Below, one piece after another: positions 3,121 to 40,038 of a stretch of 40,038 nucleotides of DNA (position 1 is its first letter; the number at the start of each line of letters is the position of its first letter). Position numbers and translations under genes: made by a program. Under the pieces are notes generated by a model. The model worked only from the letters and a program-made list of their open reading frames with translations. It had not been told where the DNA came from and did no database searches. Location of the stretch: positions 1-40,038 of IMG/VR virus record IMGVR_UViG_3300049893_000480; one strand, written 5' to 3'. Source of the stretch: a virus.

Positions 3121-4709
3121 TGGGCCTCCGATCCTCAATCCTCGGCTGGCTGCAGCGGGGTTCAGCGCCAACGCAAGCACCACGGCGCCGGATGTATCAA
3201 GGCGCAAGCGTTAGCCGCCTGACAAGCGACTGGGTAAGCAACGGAACCAGCGCCGACGCTGAGATTAAAGGCAGCTTGCCGCGGCTGCGGAACCGTTCGC
3301 GGCAGCTGGTACGCGACAACGACTATGCGCGCCAAGCAATCCGCGCGGTGAAGAACAACGTGGTCGGCACCGGCATCAAGATGCAGGCGCAGGTGCGGAT
3401 GCAGCGCGGCGGGGGCCGGCTAGATCAGCCGGTGAACGATGCGATCGAGACCGCATGGAAGGAGTGGGGCAAAAAGCAGTTCTGCCACACAGGCGGCCGA
3501 CTGAGCTGGCACGACATGGAACGCCTGATCATCGGCGCGATGGCCGAATCTGGCGAGGTGTTCCTGCGCAAAGTGCGGCAGCCGTTTGGTGGCAGCCGTG
3601 TGCCGTTTGCACTTGAGGTGATCGAGTCAGATCTGTTGGACGACACCTATACCGGTGCCAGCACAATCGATGGCAACGAATGGCGGATGGGCGTTGAGTG
3701 CGACAGGTGGGGCCGGCCGGTGCAGTATGCGTTCCTGAAAAAACATCCGGGTGATGCGCCGTTTCAGGGGCAGCCTGGGCCTCGTCACAAGCTGATTCCC
3801 GCAAACGAGATTGTCCACCTGTATCTCTGTGACCGCCCCGGCCAGACCAGGGGCGTTCCGTGGCTGGCGACTGCAATCCAGCGTCTGCACCACCTGGCTG
3901 GATATGAAGAGGCCGAGGTGATCCGCGCGCGGGCGAGCAGCGCACTGATGGGCTTTATCGAGAGTCCGGAGGGTGAGCTGCTGGGTGATGAAGTGATTGA
4001 TGGTGAGCGCGTTAGTAACTTTGAGCCCGGCGTGTTCAAGTATCTGGCACCTGGCGAAAAGGTGACCGTGCCTGCGCTTGATGCGCCTGATGGGCAGTTC
4101 GAGCCGTTTCTGCGGGCCATGCTGCGCGCAATGGCGGCCGGCATTGGCTGCAGCTACGAAAGCATCAGCCGAGATTTCAGCCAGACGAACTACAGCAGCA
4201 GCCGGTTAAGCCTGCTTGAGGATCGCGATCATTGGCGCGCGCTGCAGCATTACCTAATCGAAAATTTCCACCAGCCGGTGTTTGAGGCATGGCTGGAGAT
4301 GGCGGTGCTGGGCGGCGTGCTGAACCTGCCGGTGTATGAGACCGATCCTGAGCGCTATCGGCAGATCCGCTGGATGCCGCGCGGCTGGGCCTGGGTAGAC
4401 CCGGCCAAGGAAGTGCAGGCCTATAAGGACGCGGTGCGCTGTGGGTTCAAGACCCTGACCGAGGTGGTGGCCGAGCAAGGCGGCGACATTGAAGAGCTGC
4501 TGACGGCGCGCGCGGCTGAGCTGCAGATGGCCGATGAGCTTGATCTGATGTTCGACACCGACCCGCATGAGGTGAACGGATCAGGCACTGAGCAACCAAG
4601 CGATCCCGCTGAGGATCAGGCTGAGGAAACTGATCCTGCCAGTGATGCGGATCCGACAGACGATAATGGCGAGGATGACACTGAGGACACCGATGGACCT
4701 ATCGCGTGA
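3120..4709 (+). CDS. Portal protein, lambda gpB family
   Basis: Forms the dodecameric portal ring through which DNA enters the head; 529 aa. Family features include the N-terminal RSRQLVRDNDYARQAI block, the NNVVGTGIK segment, the central ANEIVHLYLCDRPGQTRGVPWLA block and the IGCSYESISRDFSQTNYSS segment. All match lambda-type portals. The last 50 or so residues are strongly acidic (many D/E, with P/T/S), unlike the body. The coding end overlaps the next gene by 17 to 68 bases, depending on that gene's start. Start ATG overlaps the previous stop. Confidence 0.95.
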   Translation: MGLRSSILGWLQRGSAPTQAPRRRMYQGASVSRLTSDWVSNGTSADAEIKGSLPRLRNRSRQLVRDNDYARQAIRAVKNNVVGTGIKMQAQVRMQRGGGRLDQPVNDAIETAWKEWGKKQFCHTGGRLSWHDMERLIIGAMAESGEVFLRKVRQPFGGSRVPFALEVIESDLLDDTYTGASTIDGNEWRMGVECDRWGRPVQYAFLKKHPGDAPFQGQPGPRHKLIPANEIVHLYLCDRPGQTRGVPWLATAIQRLHHLAGYEEAEVIRARASSALMGFIESPEGELLGDEVIDGERVSNFEPGVFKYLAPGEKVTVPALDAPDGQFEPFLRAMLRAMAAGIGCSYESISRDFSQTNYSSSRLSLLEDRDHWRALQHYLIENFHQPVFEAWLEMAVLGGVLNLPVYETDPERYRQIRWMPRGWAWVDPAKEVQAYKDAVRCGFKTLTEVVAEQGGDIEELLTARAAELQMADELDLMFDTDPHEVNGSGTEQPSDPAEDQAEETDPASDADPTDDNGEDDTEDTDGPIA

Positions 4710-8568: not shown

Positions 8569-8910
8569 ATGTTCGTTCTCTCGCAGAGCGAGTCATACAC
8601 CTGGCCGGTCACCGTCGAATTTCCCGTCGATGGTGGCCGGTTCGATAAACAGGCATTCGATGCTGAATTTCGCCGGCTGCCGCAGTCTCGGATCCGTGCG
8701 ATTTGGGACATGATCCAGGCCGGCGAGCTGAACGATGATGAGCTGTGCGCCGAGGTGCTGGTCGGCTGGGCCGGCATCCAGGACGCCAAGGGAACTGACG
8801 TGCCCTACAGCGAAAAGGCCAAAGCTGATCTGCTGAATGTGCCGCTGGTTGCTGCTGCTGTGGTTACCAGCTGGCTCGACAGCCTGAGCAAGGGCAAACG
8901 AAAAAACTGA
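8569..8910 (+). CDS. Tail assembly chaperone G
   Basis: Zero-frame product of 113 aa, the counterpart of lambda gpG. It starts at an ATG preceded by AAGGAG (8558-8563) and ends SKGKRKN, stopping directly after an A AAA AAC heptamer. It is predicted to bind and space the tape measure during tail assembly. The family is poorly conserved in sequence, so the call rests on length, position between tail tube and tape measure, and the frameshift signal. The -1 product continues to 9227. Confidence 0.8.
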   Translation: MFVLSQSESYTWPVTVEFPVDGGRFDKQAFDAEFRRLPQSRIRAIWDMIQAGELNDDELCAEVLVGWAGIQDAKGTDVPYSEKAKADLLNVPLVAAAVVTSWLDSLSKGKRKN

Positions 8911-8987: not shown

Positions 8988-9227
8988 GTGTCAGAACCCA
9001 GCGAGCCGAAACAGTTCGAGATATGGGAAGAAAACTGGGACGCCGTGGTGATGTGGACCCGATTGCAGACGCAATGGCGCGCAAGTGCTGGCGGTGTGAT
9101 CGGGCTCGATTACGGCGTCTTGGAATGGCTCCTTAGACTGTATGAAGTGAAGGATCAGCGCGCCTTGCTGGAGGATCTGCAGATCATGGAAGGCGCCGCG
9201 CTGGCCGCAATGCACAAGGAGGGTTGA
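8988..9227 (+). CDS. T portion of the G-T tail chaperone fusion (DUF1799-like)
   Basis: This open frame is the -1 extension of G. It is continuous from the slippery site, entering as LIAAAEYWARGG, so the real N-terminal boundary of the T segment is about 8907. The segment FEIWEENWDAVVMWTRLQTQWR...GLDYGVLEWLLRLY resembles the DUF1799/lambda T group. The GTG at 8988 has no Shine-Dalgarno, so independent synthesis is unlikely. It is expected only as part of a 219-aa GT protein that recruits tail tube subunits to the tape measure complex. Confidence 0.8.
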   Translation: MSEPSEPKQFEIWEENWDAVVMWTRLQTQWRASAGGVIGLDYGVLEWLLRLYEVKDQRALLEDLQIMEGAALAAMHKEG

Positions 9228-9230
9228 GCC

Positions 9231-12200
9231 ATGGCAATGACCCTCGACACTGCGATTAAGTTCACAGCAAAGCTGGAGGGCCAGGGGCTCGATCAGCTGA
9301 AGCGGAACCTGCAGGGCCTGGCGCAGCAAGGCAACGTCAGCAAGCGATTGCTTGATCAGCTTTACACCGCCACCAAAGCGCTCGGCAGTGCGTCAAACAA
9401 TACGATCGCGGGCCTACAGAAACAGGCGGCAGCGCTGCGTGTGTTGCGCGAGCAGGCGGAGTTTGGCAGCCGAAAATTCAAGCTACTGAGTAACGATATT
9501 GAGGCCGTTGAGGCACGGCTGCGCAAGTTTCAGGGCACTGCTGCCAAGGGTGCTGGCATTGGCCGCGGTGAGGCCCTTCTGGCTGGTGTGGCTGGTGGCA
9601 TCGCGGCAAAGGCTACGGATTATGCGGTGCAGGGCGCTGGCGCTGTGGTGCGGGTGGGACTCGATGCCGAGTCTTCGCGCGTGCGCCTGAAGGCGCTCAC
9701 TGACGAATTTGGCGATTACAACCAAGCGCAGCAGGCTGCGGCACGCATCGCACAAACGCTGCGACTGAGCACGACAGAAGCGCAAGCTGGCTTTGCAGAT
9801 CTCTACGCGGCGCTGCGCCCCACTGGGGTGACTGTTCAAGAGGTTGAAAAGGCTTTCATCGGCTTTACGGCCGCCGCCCGCAACAGCGGTGCAACTGCAC
9901 AGGAATCATCGGCTGCACTGGTGCAGCTAAAGCAGGCACTGGCTTCTGGTGTACTGCAGGGTGAAGAACTGCGCTCGATCCGTGAGCAGGCTCCGCTGGT
10001 GGCGCAGGCCATCGCCAAGGAGATGGGCGTCAGCATCGGCGCGCTGAAAGAGCTGGCCTCGCAGGGTGAAGTCACCAGCGACATCGTGCTGCGTGCGCTG
10101 GCAAAGCTTAGTGAGTCGCAGCTGGGCAAGCTCAACGCCCAGTTCGACACCGGCACGCAGGCCCTGAAGGATCTCAGCAACGCCGCGACTGAGCTGGGCA
10201 CTGAGGTGGCCAAAACATTTGGCCCCACAGCTGTCGCGCTCATCCGCGATTTCACGCGGTTTATCAAGCAAGCTGGTGAAGTTTGGGGCTCATTGTTTGG
10301 CGGCGATGGCGAGGCTGACGCTCGGCTGCAGGAATCAGTCAAAGCGCGCGAGTTGGCGCTGCAGGACGCAAACCGCCGATTCACCAATCCGTTCAGCTTC
10401 AACACAGGGGAGAAGGAGTCCTACCTGCGGCAGCGCGAGGCTCAAATCCGAGAACGTCTGGCACAGGAGCGCGTAACTCGCGAGTTGAAGTCGGACATGC
10501 TTACGCCTGCCCAGCTTGAGGCACAAAAGCAGGCTGACAAGGAGCGCGCGTCTGCCCGCGCCGCGGCCAATAAAAAAGCGCTGGAGGACGAAACCAAGGC
10601 CCGCGAGCAGATGGAGGAAAAGCTCGCGGACGCTGCGCAGCGCAATGCCGAGCAGCTGGCCGATTTCCGCGCTGAGACCATCAAACGCGCAGCCGAGCTG
10701 GAGCGCGACCTAGGCGATCGGCGGCTGGAGATCGAGCGCAGCATCGCTGAGGCCCGCCGGCGCATTGCTGAGCAGGAACAGGATCAGGCTCTGGAGGCCG
10801 AGCGGCAGCGGCTTGCTGCTGCTGGCTTGAGCACCGAGGGCATCGACGCAGCTAAGGAGCTGGGCGAGATCTCGCGGCGCTACAGCGAGCAACGGATCCA
10901 GAACGAGCAGAACGCAACCGATCGGCAGGTGCAACTCCAGCGCCAGCTGGAAGAGTTCAAGACCAGCGTGGCCGATGGCATCGGCAAGATCCAGGAGGGA
11001 TACGCCCGATCAGTCAGCAACATCCTGCAGGACGCTGGCAAGAAACTCGGCCAGAGCATGATCGACGGCGCCAGTCAGGCAGCCGGCGTGCTTGGTGGTG
11101 CCCGTGGTGGTGCGGTGGGCCCCTCCAGCCTGCGCAGCGGTTCTGTACGCGGTGGGCAGCTGAACGTCGGCACGCTAGTGGGCCTAGCCAAGGCGGCCGG
11201 TTTTAGTGATCGAGACGCGCAAATCATGGCGGCAATCGCCATGGCGGAAAGTGGCGGCCGCAGCACTGAGTTCAACGGCAACGCAGCAACGGGTGACAAG
11301 AGTTATGGGCTATGGCAGGTCAACATGCTGGGCAACATGGGCCCAGAGCGGCGCCGTGCGTTTGGCATTAGCGACAACGCCCAGCTGTTTGACCCGGCCA
11401 CCAACGCAAACGCCGCACGGCAGGTTTATCAGTCGCAAGGTTTTGGCGCCTGGTCGGTGTATCGCAGTGGTGCTTACCGGCAGTTTCTTCCTGGTGCCAT
11501 GGCGGCAGGCGCTGGATCACCTGCCGGGTTTAACAGCGCCGGCCTGATGGGTGGCATCCAGAAGGCAGGCCAGCAGCTTGGTGGTGCAATCGGCACTGAG
11601 AAGGCTGTGAAGGATCAGCAGGCCTTCAACGATCTGTTTGGCGCCTATCTGGGCAAGTTCGGTAATTACAAGCAGGATCTTGACGGCGTAACGCGGAGCG
11701 CCAGCCAGCAACTGCAGGATCAACAGCGCATCTATGAACTGATGCGCAGCGGTCTCAGCCCTGAACTGGCGCGTCAGCGGGTTGATGCCGAGAATGCTGC
11801 GGCTGCTGAAAACGAGCGCCTCAAGGCCCTCGAAACGCAGCTCGACAAGGAGCTGCAGCGCACGGATCTCACAGAGCAGCAGCGCGCGCAGCTGAAAGAT
11901 CTGCGCGCCGAAGTGATCGCTCGTCAGATGAACGAGCAGGGCATCACCGAGGAAATCCTCAAGCAGCAGCAGGCCCTCGAAGACCTGAACCGCCGACAGC
12001 AGGCCCTGGCTGATCTCACGCAGTCGATCGGCAGCAGTCTGTCGCAGGGCATCATTGGCGGCATCGATGCAGCGATCGGTGCTGCGATGACCGGCGCGAA
12101 GGATCTCGATGATCAGCTGAAGCAGATCGCTAGCGGTGTGCTGAAAGAAATCGGCATGGCGCTGATCAAGTTCGGCCTCAACAGCCTGCTGGGTGGCTTC

Positions 12201-36309: not shown

Positions 36310-38813
36310 CCCGCATCACAGATCTCGCCACCGGCCACTGGCCGTCGATCCTTGGCGCACTGGCGGGCCTCTCCGCTGAGCAGCTCACCGATAAGCATCA
36401 GCCCTGCCCCATGTGCGGCGGCAGTGATCGCTATCGCTTCGATGATCAGAACGGCTCCGGCTCCTGGTTTTGCAATCAGTGCGGCGGGCCTCAGCAATCC
36501 GGTGGTGCTGGCAATGGCATGGAGCTGTTGTTGCGTCAAACCGGCTGGACATTCAAAGAGGCCGCCCAGCGCATCGAGCAGCACCTCGGCATCGCCCCAC
36601 AACGCCCAGAACCGCCCACCAAAGGCGCAGAGACCGTCTGGCGCTACAGCGACACCTTTCTGGTCTGCCGCTTCCCTGGAAAGAAAATCAGGCCGCTCTG
36701 GTTCTCCGGCAGCCGCTGGGAGTGGAAGGCGCCACCAGCACCGCGCCCACTGCTCAACCTCGACCAGCTGCGGTCACGCACCGGCACAGTGCTGATTGTT
36801 GAAGGTGAGAAGGCCGCCGACGCTGCAGCACGCCTTTATCCCCGCGCTGTCGTCACCACCTGGCCCTCAGGCTGCAAAGCGATTGACAAGGCCGACTGGG
36901 CGCCCCTGCAGGGTCGCCGCGTCATCCTCTGGCCTGATGCCGATGCCGTAGGCCAACAGGCCATGGATCGCCTCGCCCAGCTGTTGCTCCGTCTTCCCGT
37001 CGATCGGGTGCAGATGGTGACCCCACCCGCTGACTCACCAGAAGGCTGGGATCTCGCTGATGCCACCTGGAGCACCGATGAGGCCGCGGCCTACATCAAG
37101 GCCAACATCTCAGAGCCCCTGGAGCTGGATCCAGAGCAGCCCGCACAGCGGGAGCTGCAGGCCGACCCAGAGCCCGACGACGACCTGCCAGATCTCGACG
37201 CAAACAATCACTACACCTGCCTGGGCTTCGATGGCGACGCCTACTACTACCAGCCGCACAGCACTGGGCAGATCATGCGCCTTTCACGTTCGGCGCACAC
37301 CGCAACCAATCTCGTGGCCCTGGCACCGTTGCCCTACTGGGAGCAGCTGGCGCCCGGTGCTCGCGGTGGCATTGATTGGACACGCGCTGCTGCCACCCTG
37401 TTCGCCATCAACGCCGACCGTGGCGTCTACAACCCCGATCGCATTCGAGGCCGCGGCGCATGGTGGGATAACAAGCGCACCGTGCTGCACCTAGGCGATC
37501 GCCTGATCGTTGATGGCATCTCACGGCCCGTGCTGCGTCCCTTCGACAGCGGCTACCTCTACCAGCGCATGTCGGAGCTGCACGGCCCCGGCAAGGCCAG
37601 GCCGCTCAGTGACGCTGAGGCACTCTCGATCTGCGAGCTGGCTGAGCGCTTCCACTGGGAAGTCCCCGCATCCGGCTTGCTTCTGGCCGGCTGGGTCACA
37701 CTCGCGCCGATCTGCGGCTCGCTGCCATGGCGCCCTCATGCCTGGCTCACAGCAGCAGCAGGTTCCGGCAAGTCCGCCATTCTCGATCGTTATGTCGCGC
37801 CGCTTCTGGCCGATATGGGCCTGATCGTCGCTGGCAACACCACCGAGGCCGGCCTACGCCAAACCCTGCGCTGCGATGCCCTTCCTGTTGTTTTCGATGA
37901 GGCCGAGTCCAACGAAAAGGCCGATCAGGTTCGGATGCAGAACATCCTCTCGCTAGCTCGTGTTGCGTCCAGCGAGTCTCACGCAACTCTGCTCAAGGGC
38001 TCGCCCGGTGGTGATGTCACCCGCTTCAACATCCGCTCGATGTTCCTGATGTCGTCCATCGCCACAGCCCTCAAGCAAGGCGCCGACCGCAGTCGCTTCG
38101 CTCAGCTCACACTGCGCTCACCCACTGAGCTGCCCAAGGAAGAACGCCTCAAGCACTGGGAGGCCCTTGACCGCGACCTCGACCGCTACATCACCCCTGA
38201 GGTGGCCCTACGCCTCATCGCTCGCACCGTCTCCCTGGTGCCGGTCATTCGCCAGTCGATCAGGGTGTTCACCCGCGTGGCTGCTGAGCACTTCGACTCC
38301 CAGCGCCTCGGTGATCAGTACGGCACCCTGCTGGCCGGTGCATGGTCGCTGATGTCGTCAGAGGTGCCCACACCGCAGCAAGCCAAGGCCCTCATCGATC
38401 AGAACGACTGGGAGCCCTACAGCCAGACCACAGAGGTGCCAGACGAACGCCGCTGCATTCACCGCATCCTTCAGCATCAGGTCCGCGTCGAAACCGACGA
38501 CAAGACCTACACCCGCACCCTTGGTGAGCTGGTCGAAATCGCAGCCCACCAGATCAGCGACATCGATGTGACTGCTCGCAAGGCTCAGGACACTCTCGGC
38601 CGCCATGGCCTACGGGTTGAAGCGGACGCCGATCAGCTGCTGGTGAGCAACACGGCAGAGGCCCTGGCCACGATTTTGCGTGACACTCCCTGGTCGCACA
38701 GCTGGGCCACGGTGCTCAGTCGACTGCCTGGTGCGGCGAAGGCAGGGGCCACCCGTTTCAGGGGTGTGGGGGCCATCTCCAGGGCGATTGCGTTACGGAT
38801 TTCGGCCCTGTAA
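36306..38813 (+). CDS. Primase-helicase (zinc finger, TOPRIM, P-loop)
   Basis: An 835-aa replication protein. Residues 30-70 form the primase zinc ribbon (CPMCGG...FCNQCGG). TOPRIM-like motifs: VLIVEGEKAAD (about 160-170) and ILWPDADAVG (about 212-221). Residues about 430-660 form a helicase-type ATPase with Walker A TAAAGSGKS (482-490) and Walker B-like VVFDEAES. The arrangement resembles P4-alpha and DUF927-type primase-helicases. It should start phage replication at the adjacent iteron array. The stop TAA lies inside one GTAACG iteron. Confidence 0.92.
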   Translation: MTRITDLATGHWPSILGALAGLSAEQLTDKHQPCPMCGGSDRYRFDDQNGSGSWFCNQCGGPQQSGGAGNGMELLLRQTGWTFKEAAQRIEQHLGIAPQRPEPPTKGAETVWRYSDTFLVCRFPGKKIRPLWFSGSRWEWKAPPAPRPLLNLDQLRSRTGTVLIVEGEKAADAAARLYPRAVVTTWPSGCKAIDKADWAPLQGRRVILWPDADAVGQQAMDRLAQLLLRLPVDRVQMVTPPADSPEGWDLADATWSTDEAAAYIKANISEPLELDPEQPAQRELQADPEPDDDLPDLDANNHYTCLGFDGDAYYYQPHSTGQIMRLSRSAHTATNLVALAPLPYWEQLAPGARGGIDWTRAAATLFAINADRGVYNPDRIRGRGAWWDNKRTVLHLGDRLIVDGISRPVLRPFDSGYLYQRMSELHGPGKARPLSDAEALSICELAERFHWEVPASGLLLAGWVTLAPICGSLPWRPHAWLTAAAGSGKSAILDRYVAPLLADMGLIVAGNTTEAGLRQTLRCDALPVVFDEAESNEKADQVRMQNILSLARVASSESHATLLKGSPGGDVTRFNIRSMFLMSSIATALKQGADRSRFAQLTLRSPTELPKEERLKHWEALDRDLDRYITPEVALRLIARTVSLVPVIRQSIRVFTRVAAEHFDSQRLGDQYGTLLAGAWSLMSSEVPTPQQAKALIDQNDWEPYSQTTEVPDERRCIHRILQHQVRVETDDKTYTRTLGELVEIAAHQISDIDVTARKAQDTLGRHGLRVEADADQLLVSNTAEALATILRDTPWSHSWATVLSRLPGAAKAGATRFRGVGAISRAIALRISAL

Positions 38814-39070
38814 CGCCCTTGTAACGGGGGCTGTTACGGCTGAAATCCATTGCGCCGGAACGGGTTTAGGAAAAACGTAACGGTGTAACGGTTTTCGGCC
38901 GAAATACTCTCTCTCACACACACACACAGACACACACAGACACACACCCTCTCATCCCCTTATTAATTAATCTCTATTTTTAGAAATAGGTGTTACAGCG
39001 TTACGCGCCGCTCGGATCGCCTCTGCCGCAGAGGGTCTCGGGTGTAACGCCTCCTGTTACACCCGGTTAC
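38792..39070. other. Candidate replication origin with GTAAC iterons
   Basis: Eleven GTAAC/GTTAC units occur in 279 bases: 38792, 38810, 38821, 38833, 38877, 38885, 38992, 39000, 39044, 39056 and 39066 (start positions). The longer form TGTAACG is seen at 38809, 38820, 38884 and 39043. Between the two clusters lie a CA-rich tract (38907-38954) and an AT-rich segment (38960-38990) with TTAATTAA and a CTATTT/AAATAG hairpin. A perfect 12-bp palindrome TTTCGGCCGAAA is at 38893-38904. The non-coding stretch is 38814-39137 and follows the primase gene, as typical of phage origins. Confidence 0.65.
38907..38954 (+). repeat. CT/CA microsatellite in the origin region
   Basis: A pyrimidine-purine tract: CTCTCTCT, then (CA)n interrupted by GA, then CCTCTC. 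About 48 bases nearly free of G on the plus strand. It separates the left iterons from the AT-rich segment and could ease unwinding or form Z-DNA, or reflect replication slippage. Confidence 0.85.
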
Positions 39071-39137
39071 GTCTGTCACGGCTACGGCTCACCTGATCTC
39101 ACTCGCCTGGCCCGGCCTCCCCGCCTACCCTTGGCCC

Positions 39138-39857
39138 ATGAGCACCGTCCGCATCGACTTCGACGCAGAGGCCCTCAGAAGGCTCGATAACCGCGTTCGG
39201 CTACTCACAGACCAGAACCTGCGTTACGTGGCCTCCAGGGCCCTTACAGGGGCCGCTCAGAGCGCTCAGGCGCAGCTCAAGCAGGACACGCCCCGATTCA
39301 TCGACAACCCGACCCGCTGGACGCTGGGCGGCACTTACGTGAAGTTCGCCAAGGCCAGCAACCTGGAGGCCGAGGTGGGCTTCAAGCAGGACATGCAGGG
39401 CCGAGGCAATGCCGCAGGCCGCTATCTGCTGCCCATCGTCAAGGGCACCACGCCCAAGCTCAAGGGCGCAGACCTATCGGCAACCAAGATCGCAGGCCAG
39501 GCCCCTGGCGCTGTGCTCGTGCCAGCCAAGGGCAGCCCACTGCGCAAGACCGCAGCAGGCAACTACACCATCAGCGCCTACGCCAAGGTGCTGGGCTCTG
39601 CCCGCTCGGGTGGCGATGGCAGGCAATACTTCCTGGCCCCGGTGCGCCAGGGCAGCAGCACGCAGGCGATCTTCACCCGCACTGGCCGCGGCGGTAAGCA
39701 GCTGCGCAGGGTGTTCACGATCGACCCCAACCCCAAGACCAGGCGGCCGCAGTTCCCGGTGCGCGAGATCCTCACCAGGGCGTTCGGGCAGGCATGGCCT
39801 GCTGAGGTGCGCAGGGCCTATGAGGCCGAGGTGGCCCGGAGGCTGGGCAGGGGCTGA
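39138..39857 (+). CDS. Putative virion morphogenesis protein
   Basis: A 239-aa basic protein. The opening RIDFDAEALRRLDNRVRLLT, then RYVASRALTGAAQSAQAQLK and DTPRFIDNPTRWTLGGTYVK, resembles a family of siphovirus/podovirus structural proteins that have the RALT-A-A-Q-PRFIDNPT-F/W pattern. It may act in head or tail joining, similar in position and character to minor tail Z proteins. It lies between the origin and terminase, on the late strand, so it is the first gene of the late region if the genome is circular. Confidence 0.55.
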   Translation: MSTVRIDFDAEALRRLDNRVRLLTDQNLRYVASRALTGAAQSAQAQLKQDTPRFIDNPTRWTLGGTYVKFAKASNLEAEVGFKQDMQGRGNAAGRYLLPIVKGTTPKLKGADLSATKIAGQAPGAVLVPAKGSPLRKTAAGNYTISAYAKVLGSARSGGDGRQYFLAPVRQGSSTQAIFTRTGRGGKQLRRVFTIDPNPKTRRPQFPVREILTRAFGQAWPAEVRRAYEAEVARRLGRG

Positions 39858-40038
39858 CCCATACAACGGCATCGTGATGTCGTAGGCCGCAAGAACCGTT
39901 GCAGCGCAAGCGTTCTCAACTGCGCACCCTGCTGACATCACGGCATCGTTGTACCGTCACACACCCCCATCGCTGAGATCCCTTGCGCCGCAAGGGGTTT
40001 GGGGCACGGGGGCCGGCCTATGCGCCCAGGCGCATGGG
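39858..40038. other. Structured non-coding region, candidate cos
   Basis: No gene is seen here. An imperfect inverted repeat spans 39862-39953: TACAAC/GTTGTA (39862-39867, 39948-39953) and CGTGATGTC/GACATCACG (39873-39881, 39934-39942), with ACGGCATCGT present in both arms. A perfect hairpin CCCTTGC-GCC-GCAAGGG lies at 39980-39996 and a dyad ATGCGCC-CA-GGCGCAT at 40020-40035. None is followed by a T-tract. Position before terminase suggests cos or packaging signals. Confidence 0.45.

Follow-up and report, generated by a model that had tools for sequence, protein, structure and literature searches.

We identified a mirrored array of short DNA boxes at the end of a primase-helicase gene in a virus contig and found by sequence comparison that, among close relatives, a single residue in the predicted wing of the encoded protein (residue 817) predicts the first two letters of the boxes without exception. 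We propose that the array is very probably a phage replication origin, with the primase-helicase acting as a self-loading initiator and its C-terminal winged helix as the reader of the boxes. Covariation, cassette exchange, conserved array geometry and a predicted winged-helix fold all emerge from comparative sequence analysis.

The window analyzed here is the full 40,038 bp of record IMGVR_UViG_3300049893_000480, a linear virus contig. As the record is linear and lacks end repeats, the circular genome mentioned in the first-pass annotation is only an assumption. Because of its gene content, including terminase, portal, tape measure, integrase, a PD-(D/E)XK nuclease, a DEAD-type helicase, a VRR-NUC protein and the primase-helicase, the window looks like a temperate tailed phage; a match to RecT was weak. 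A near-identity search of the window in phage records returned zero matches, and the closest cultured relative by primase-helicase is Synechococcus phage S-H1 at 60% identity. The cyanobacterial palindrome GCGATCGC is present in 6 copies across the window (1-40038) compared to ~1.2 expected, and this excess together with the kinship to S-H1 weakly suggests a cyanobacterial host. Near the window end, a strong inverted repeat, ATCCCTTGCGCCGCAAGGGG (39978-40010), resembles hairpins found between the box clusters of some relatives' arrays (e.g. L149 and L059) and may be a dispersed palindromic repeat.

The first-pass annotation had described eleven GTAAC/GTTAC boxes around an AT-rich core, and direct counting gave exactly 11 boxes within the 279 bp at 38792-39070 (Table 1), the first lying inside the end of the primase gene and the second overlapping its stop codon (38811-38813), as originally reported. 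The window as a whole contains 46 boxes, a count that no dinucleotide shuffle attained (20.7 +/- 4.9). Since the shuffles give 20.7 boxes per whole 40 kb, ~0.14 are expected per 279 bp; the earlier estimate of ~0.5 was conservative, and the excess itself stands. None of the other 279-bp stretches of the window that do not overlap the array came near 11 boxes, and a blind scan for clustered 6-mers ranked the array first in the window. The boxes follow a 7-bp consensus, 5'-NNTNACG-3', in the window mostly [T/C]GTAACG, and their starts are spaced in a mirrored arrangement of 18, 11, 12, 44 and 8 bp on the left and 8, 44, 12 and 10 bp on the right of a core that measures 107 bp between the nearest boxes of the two half-arrays. 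AT content is 58% over the 100 bp at 38890-38990 versus a window average of 39%. The description of the core as AT-rich holds for only 36 bp (38955-38990, 75% AT), whereas the remainder is a CT/CA-repeat tract of 52% AT. The RHH protein named as a neighbor could not be located, as we saw no RHH gene beside the array in the window; such genes follow the array in other clades.

Table 1. Features of the primase-helicase gene and the box array in the window.
Feature	Coordinates	Strand	Evidence
Primase-helicase, proposed self-loading initiator, 835 aa	36306..38813	+	phrog_35358 1e-144
Codons 745-835, part of the putative reader domain exchanged with the array in relatives	38538..38810	+	cassette breakpoints
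Codon CGT, Arg817, last residue of predicted wing strand 811-817	38754..38756	+	covariation with box type
Outer left box cluster (boxes at 38792, 38810, 38821, 38833)	38791..38838	.	
Inner left box pair (38877, 38885), 8 bp apart, 44 bp from outer cluster	38876..38890	.	
Core between half-arrays, CT/CA-repeat tract then AT-rich tract; proposed unwinding element	38890..38991	.	
Inner right box pair (38992, 39000), 8 bp apart	38991..39005	.	
Outer right box cluster (39044, 39056, 39066), 44 bp past inner pair; mirrors left half	39043..39071	.	
Minor tail protein gene, next after array, outside the origin	39138..39857	+	phrog_1924 5e-28

We compared the window across a set of 112 non-redundant primase-helicase sequences, the window included; a scan of genome contigs yielded only two distant relatives. 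An array is found immediately after the gene in 112 of 112, with only part of it visible where a contig ends there, and box enrichment at the same place in related phages, the test set by the first-pass annotation, was thus observed throughout. The letters of the boxes vary among relatives (xGT[A/T]ACG, CCTAACG/CCTCACG or TCTNACG) and the geometry is kept across box types: on either side of the core the inner boxes converge on it at a spacing of 8-9 bp, outer clusters start ~32-45 bp beyond the inner boxes, and the core is ~86-110 bp long. The shared placement, and spacing and orientation kept despite the change in letters, support the original proposal of an origin recognized by a phage initiator. 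In L128 (Tyr817; 3778-4056) and L050 (Trp817; 9149-9658) an RHH-like gene and the gene of a DnaN-like sliding clamp (PF00712, 8e-13) come after the array, together forming a compact replication module. This module lies outside the window's clade, where the minor tail gene takes its place, and the presence of a clamp gene just beyond the array in relatives counts in favor of an origin.

Several arrays showed individual peculiarities. The right half of the L138 array has decayed, and in L037 (3690-4031) an ORF-like insert separates the left from the right GTAAC-type boxes, which looks like the entry of a gene into the origin core. Hairpins between box clusters are strong in some relatives (L059, L112) and weak or absent in others, the L112 example (8588-8640 region) folding at -31.7 kcal/mol between the outer and inner left boxes of a TCTCACG-type array. 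As conserved initiation sites we rejected such hairpins, since they are inconsistent across relatives; with regard to an RSF1010-like origin with single-strand initiation hairpins in both half-arrays, this mixed pattern points neither way.

Pfam, PHROG and structural modeling place a Zn-ribbon/TOPRIM primase, a helicase and a predicted C-terminal DNA-binding domain in one chain: a Zn ribbon at residues 30-63 (Pfam Zn_Ribbon_Prim, 4e-16), a DnaG-like TOPRIM primase at ~97-276, an MCM/Cch-like AAA+ helicase at ~304-709 and a C-terminal winged helix at ~713-835. In VIA comparisons of the full-length AF2 model (pLDDT 84.7), the best structural match was SCCmec Cch (5dgk, Z 14.7 over 304-835, rmsd 13, reflecting interdomain motion), and further matches were S. 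aureus DnaG (4edg, Z 14.0 over residues 99-276), MCMs (Z 13-14 over ~400-709) and SaPI5 Rep (7ola, Z 13.2). Based on these models, the helicase core is predicted to be of the MCM/Cch-like AAA+ type. AlphaFold2 modeled residues 690-835 with a pLDDT of 89.5 (63 sequences in the alignment). Foldseek with the C-terminal domain alone gave nothing significant, and a PDB sequence search with a C-terminal profile gave nothing meaningful. In VIA, the top rows for this domain were mostly winged-helix DNA-binding domains, each weak singly (Z 3.5-4.9), led by TcpK-oriT (Z 4.9) and including the Cch C-terminal domain (Z 3.5). Together the AF2 model, this second look with VIA and the full-length match led us to assign the C-terminal domain a predicted winged-helix DNA-binding fold. 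The wing in the full model consists of strands 811-817 and 824-831, and residue 817 ends the first of these.

With box type defined from the DNA alone, we tested all 835 protein columns against it and found that residue 817 matched in 112 of 112 sequences: Arg with xG boxes (53), Trp with CC (38) and Tyr or His with TC (21, comprising 20 and 1). Mutual information at this column was 1.49 bits, equal to the entropy of box type, making it the sole perfect column of the 835; the second best reached 0.50 of the maximum. Box type changes 10 times on a tree of residues 1-700 and 4 times on a tree of the C-terminal domain with column 817 excluded, and independent pairs on the former agreed in 6 of 6 cases (sign test, p = 0.03). 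Two further scans provided a held-out set of 33 new primases, 29 of which had a readable wing and array. All 29 fit the rule (23 Arg/G, many of them closely related to one another, 3 Trp/CC, and 1 Tyr and 2 His with TC). Two Arg proteins (L214 and L216) have TGTTGCG boxes, in which letters 1-2 are kept and letter 5 is altered. A literature search, with subscription journals mostly outside its reach, found no paper describing a residue-to-box rule. In TcpK, the wing rather than the helix enters the major groove and an arginine contacts guanine (PMC6137059), offering a precedent by analogy for Arg817 reading G.

Comparison of closely related genomes revealed that the putative reader domain and the boxes are exchanged together. 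Relative to the primase end, L149 and L128 are ~97% identical in DNA from -2460 to -300 and from +300 onward and only 38-72% identical between -300 and +300, and their box types differ. The exchanged cassette of ~600 bp comprises the last 91 codons and the array, and box type switches along with it. Similarly, L149 and L075 proteins are ~98% identical over residues 1-735 and 58% identical in the C-terminal domain, and L059 and L131 align collinearly for 14 kb save mainly for the cassette, the array being the one unaligned place around the gene end. Where the N-terminal parts of two proteins share at least 90% identity, their C-terminal domains are 83-100% identical for the same box type and 57-85% for different types. 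Because box type covaries and is exchanged with the domain, the C-terminal winged helix of the primase-helicase is likely the box reader. The swap moves 91 residues at once and therefore points to the domain rather than to residue 817 alone. One array counts against this reading, as its two halves differ in box type while only one reader is present: in L119 (8470-8990) the left half carries TCTCACG boxes, fitting its Tyr817, while the right half, beside an RHH gene, carries TGTAACG/TGTTACG boxes, which may reflect either a half-swapped origin (a recent half-cassette recombinant) or an assembly chimera. We hold only tentatively, at somewhat short of an even chance, the stronger proposal that residue 817 alone sets the first two letters (Arg/Lys for xG, Trp for CC, Tyr/His for TC) and that exchange or mutation of the 600-bp cassette of reader and origin gives these phages a new replicon identity, probably as a way around incompatibility or attacks aimed at the origin.

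Repressors of the RHH class, omega among them, bind to arrays in which short repeats stand in direct and inverted orientation, and in several clades the array directly precedes an RHH-like gene (weak NikA-like Pfam match), as would be expected if the boxes were operators of a transcriptional regulator, for example the downstream RHH protein, controlling its own gene or the primase operon. However, L149, L059 and L128 share one and the same DNA-contacting N-terminus of this protein, MPEIKINVTADDLARLNAEAAAHG, although the boxes of L128 differ from those of the other two. As the same N-terminus accompanies both box types, we rejected the RHH protein as the box reader. The operator explanation is also countered by the tail gene that occupies this place in the window's clade, by the intergenic location of the array at quite different places in distant phages, and by the covarying residue, which belongs to the primase-helicase; we regard it as very unlikely.

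We also looked for arrays in phage isolates whose primases are 34-40% identical, and found in each one array of the same design, intergenic and located beside the gene or up to 14 kb away. Boxes of the xGT type accompany an Arg wing in Acinetobacter Acjo_20, Bordetella PY223, Bdellovibrio phi1422 and Pararheinheimera KLER1-1, and a Lys wing in Serratia MQ-4 and Bordetella PHB04; Pseudomonas ZRG1 (Gln) has GCTAACG boxes, and the closer S-H1 (Trp) has CCTAACG, its array being located at ~17.65-17.93 kb. The array lies upstream of the gene in Acjo_20, 1.6 kb downstream in MQ-4, and at distances of ~4.6 kb in ZRG1, 11 kb in PHB04 and 12 kb in PY223, all intergenic per annotations. In most isolate genomes the blind clustered-6-mer scan ranked the array first or joint first. 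A second dense repeat cluster (ATCCTA/ATCGGG) in the tail-gene region of ZRG1 (L313, 37084-37505) is apparently a coding or tail-module repeat.

For seven further isolates, predictions were written before the scan. The boxes agreed with prediction in Dolphis, Jeremy (a near relative of Dolphis) and ST4 (Lys), and in phiT5282EW and fHe-Yen8-01 (Arg). The prediction failed for Touem01, where Ser was predicted to go with a non-G letter and the boxes are GGTAAC, and Mecenats66 (Arg), with six boxes in 450 bp and other stretches equally dense, was not counted. Boxes are diverged in KLER1-1, PHB04, ST4 and fHe-Yen8-01, and these four give weaker support because the register was chosen after seeing them. 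Among the distant phages, the boxes with a register set in this way are TGTAAGC, TGTTCC, GGTATCC and GGTAGCG. Given the isolate results, including the failure in Touem01, the safe form of the rule suggested by these sequences is that Arg or Lys at 817 goes with G at position 2, and Trp, Tyr, His or Gln with C, with Ser as an exception. The annotation of fHe-Yen8-01 (L360) places two hypothetical genes (51816-51947 and 52114-52251) over the TGTTCC iteron array; these genes are probably spurious.

Cumulative GC skew, a check suggested by the first-pass annotation, agreed with an origin in part of the genomes. In the window and its three close relatives G002, G003 and G004, which form one clade, the skew turns from negative to positive at the array and has its circular minimum within ~1 kb of it. 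Neither S-H1 nor any of six further relatives tested showed such a sign at the array, and it was partial in G015. As a general proof of the origin we rejected GC skew, since it holds for the window's clade alone. Copy control often involves additional iterons bound by the initiator, and an array marked by skew in some clades only would also suit an autoregulatory site of the primase-helicase with the origin elsewhere. We find this very improbable, as the array is downstream of the gene in the window and as far as 14 kb from it in other phages, and the first or joint first rank of the array in the blind scan of most isolates suits an origin better than a promoter operator.

Centromeres too are made of iterons, and the array sits between early and late genes, with terminase starting at the opposite window end, an arrangement that could also fit a partition (centromere-like) or packaging site instead of a replication origin. 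Yet we found no ParA/ParB-like gene at the array and no relation to terminase genes in relatives, the covarying partner is the domain of a replicative helicase, and a core of the unwinding type is kept, leaving a partition or packaging role with little probability.

Because the anatomy matches the Cch/SaPI type, the best explanation is an origin at which two helicases are loaded, directed either at the core or across it. In the mechanism we propose, the C-terminal winged helix would bind the 7-bp boxes, with residue 817 of the wing setting the first two letters and Arg or Lys pairing with G at position 2. Helicase subunits would be loaded at each mirrored half-site, probably as a single hexamer, after which the AT-rich tract of the core would melt and the fused primase would start synthesis. 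We infer these physical steps, from binding through hexamer loading and melting to origin firing. The putative reader domain and the array travel jointly by recombination as a ~600-bp specificity cassette.

P4 alpha combines a primase, a helicase and a C-terminal iteron-binding winged helix in one protein, the same three functions predicted here for a single chain. It differs in box sequence, array geometry and position, and homology was detected at the primase end only: P4 matches the window protein only over residues 1-57 (the Zn-ribbon region, 54%), and its origin-binding domain is absent from the fold-match lists of the C-terminal domain. Lambda O and the lambdoid origins similarly pair a phage initiator with adjacent iterons in a type-specific manner, but lambda O is neither helicase nor primase, reads with its N-terminus and has its iterons inside its own gene. 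SaPI Rep and SCCmec Cch and Cch2 are AAA+ helicases whose C-terminal DNA-binding domain recognizes short iterons directly downstream of their own gene, and we likewise find short iterons and an AT-rich core directly downstream of the helicase gene. The C-terminal domain of Cch2 binds its putative origin, and SaPI primases are of the archaeo-eukaryotic type (PMC7581432), in contrast to the fused Zn-ribbon/TOPRIM (DnaG-type) primase found here. A further difference from SaPI and SCCmec is that at least three natural reader-origin specificities track one wing residue, and that the carriers are phages rather than islands. TcpK-oriT of plasmid pCW3 shares a winged helix that reads short tandem repeats through a beta-wing in the major groove (PMC6137059), but TcpK is a stand-alone conjugation accessory protein without a helicase, and at the low Z only the fold type is comparable. 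In the PLE satellites of V. cholerae, the initiator DNA-binding domain and origin covary and are swapped as a module, an exchange that escapes the origin-directed nuclease Odn (PMC8263062). These modules differ in having a RepA_N reader and ~30-bp iterons and in belonging to satellites rather than phages, and they are not known to follow a residue-to-letter rule. By analogy, our guess is that the swaps could be driven either by interference aimed at the origin, from which they would offer an escape, or by incompatibility with related prophages.

The system is very probably a self-loading-initiator origin, an already known kind, to which it adds a code linking reader and box that is unusually clear. 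For most phages with primases of this type, neither origin nor initiator has been identified, and the sequence rule finds both, even when they are kilobases apart. It also provides more than 100 natural matched reader-origin pairs of three or more specificities and makes origin specificity testable by a change of one residue and two letters. The rule could aid origin annotation in uncultured phages and the design of orthogonal laboratory replicons, and our results suggest that phages, like PLE satellites, exchange their origin identity as a cassette.
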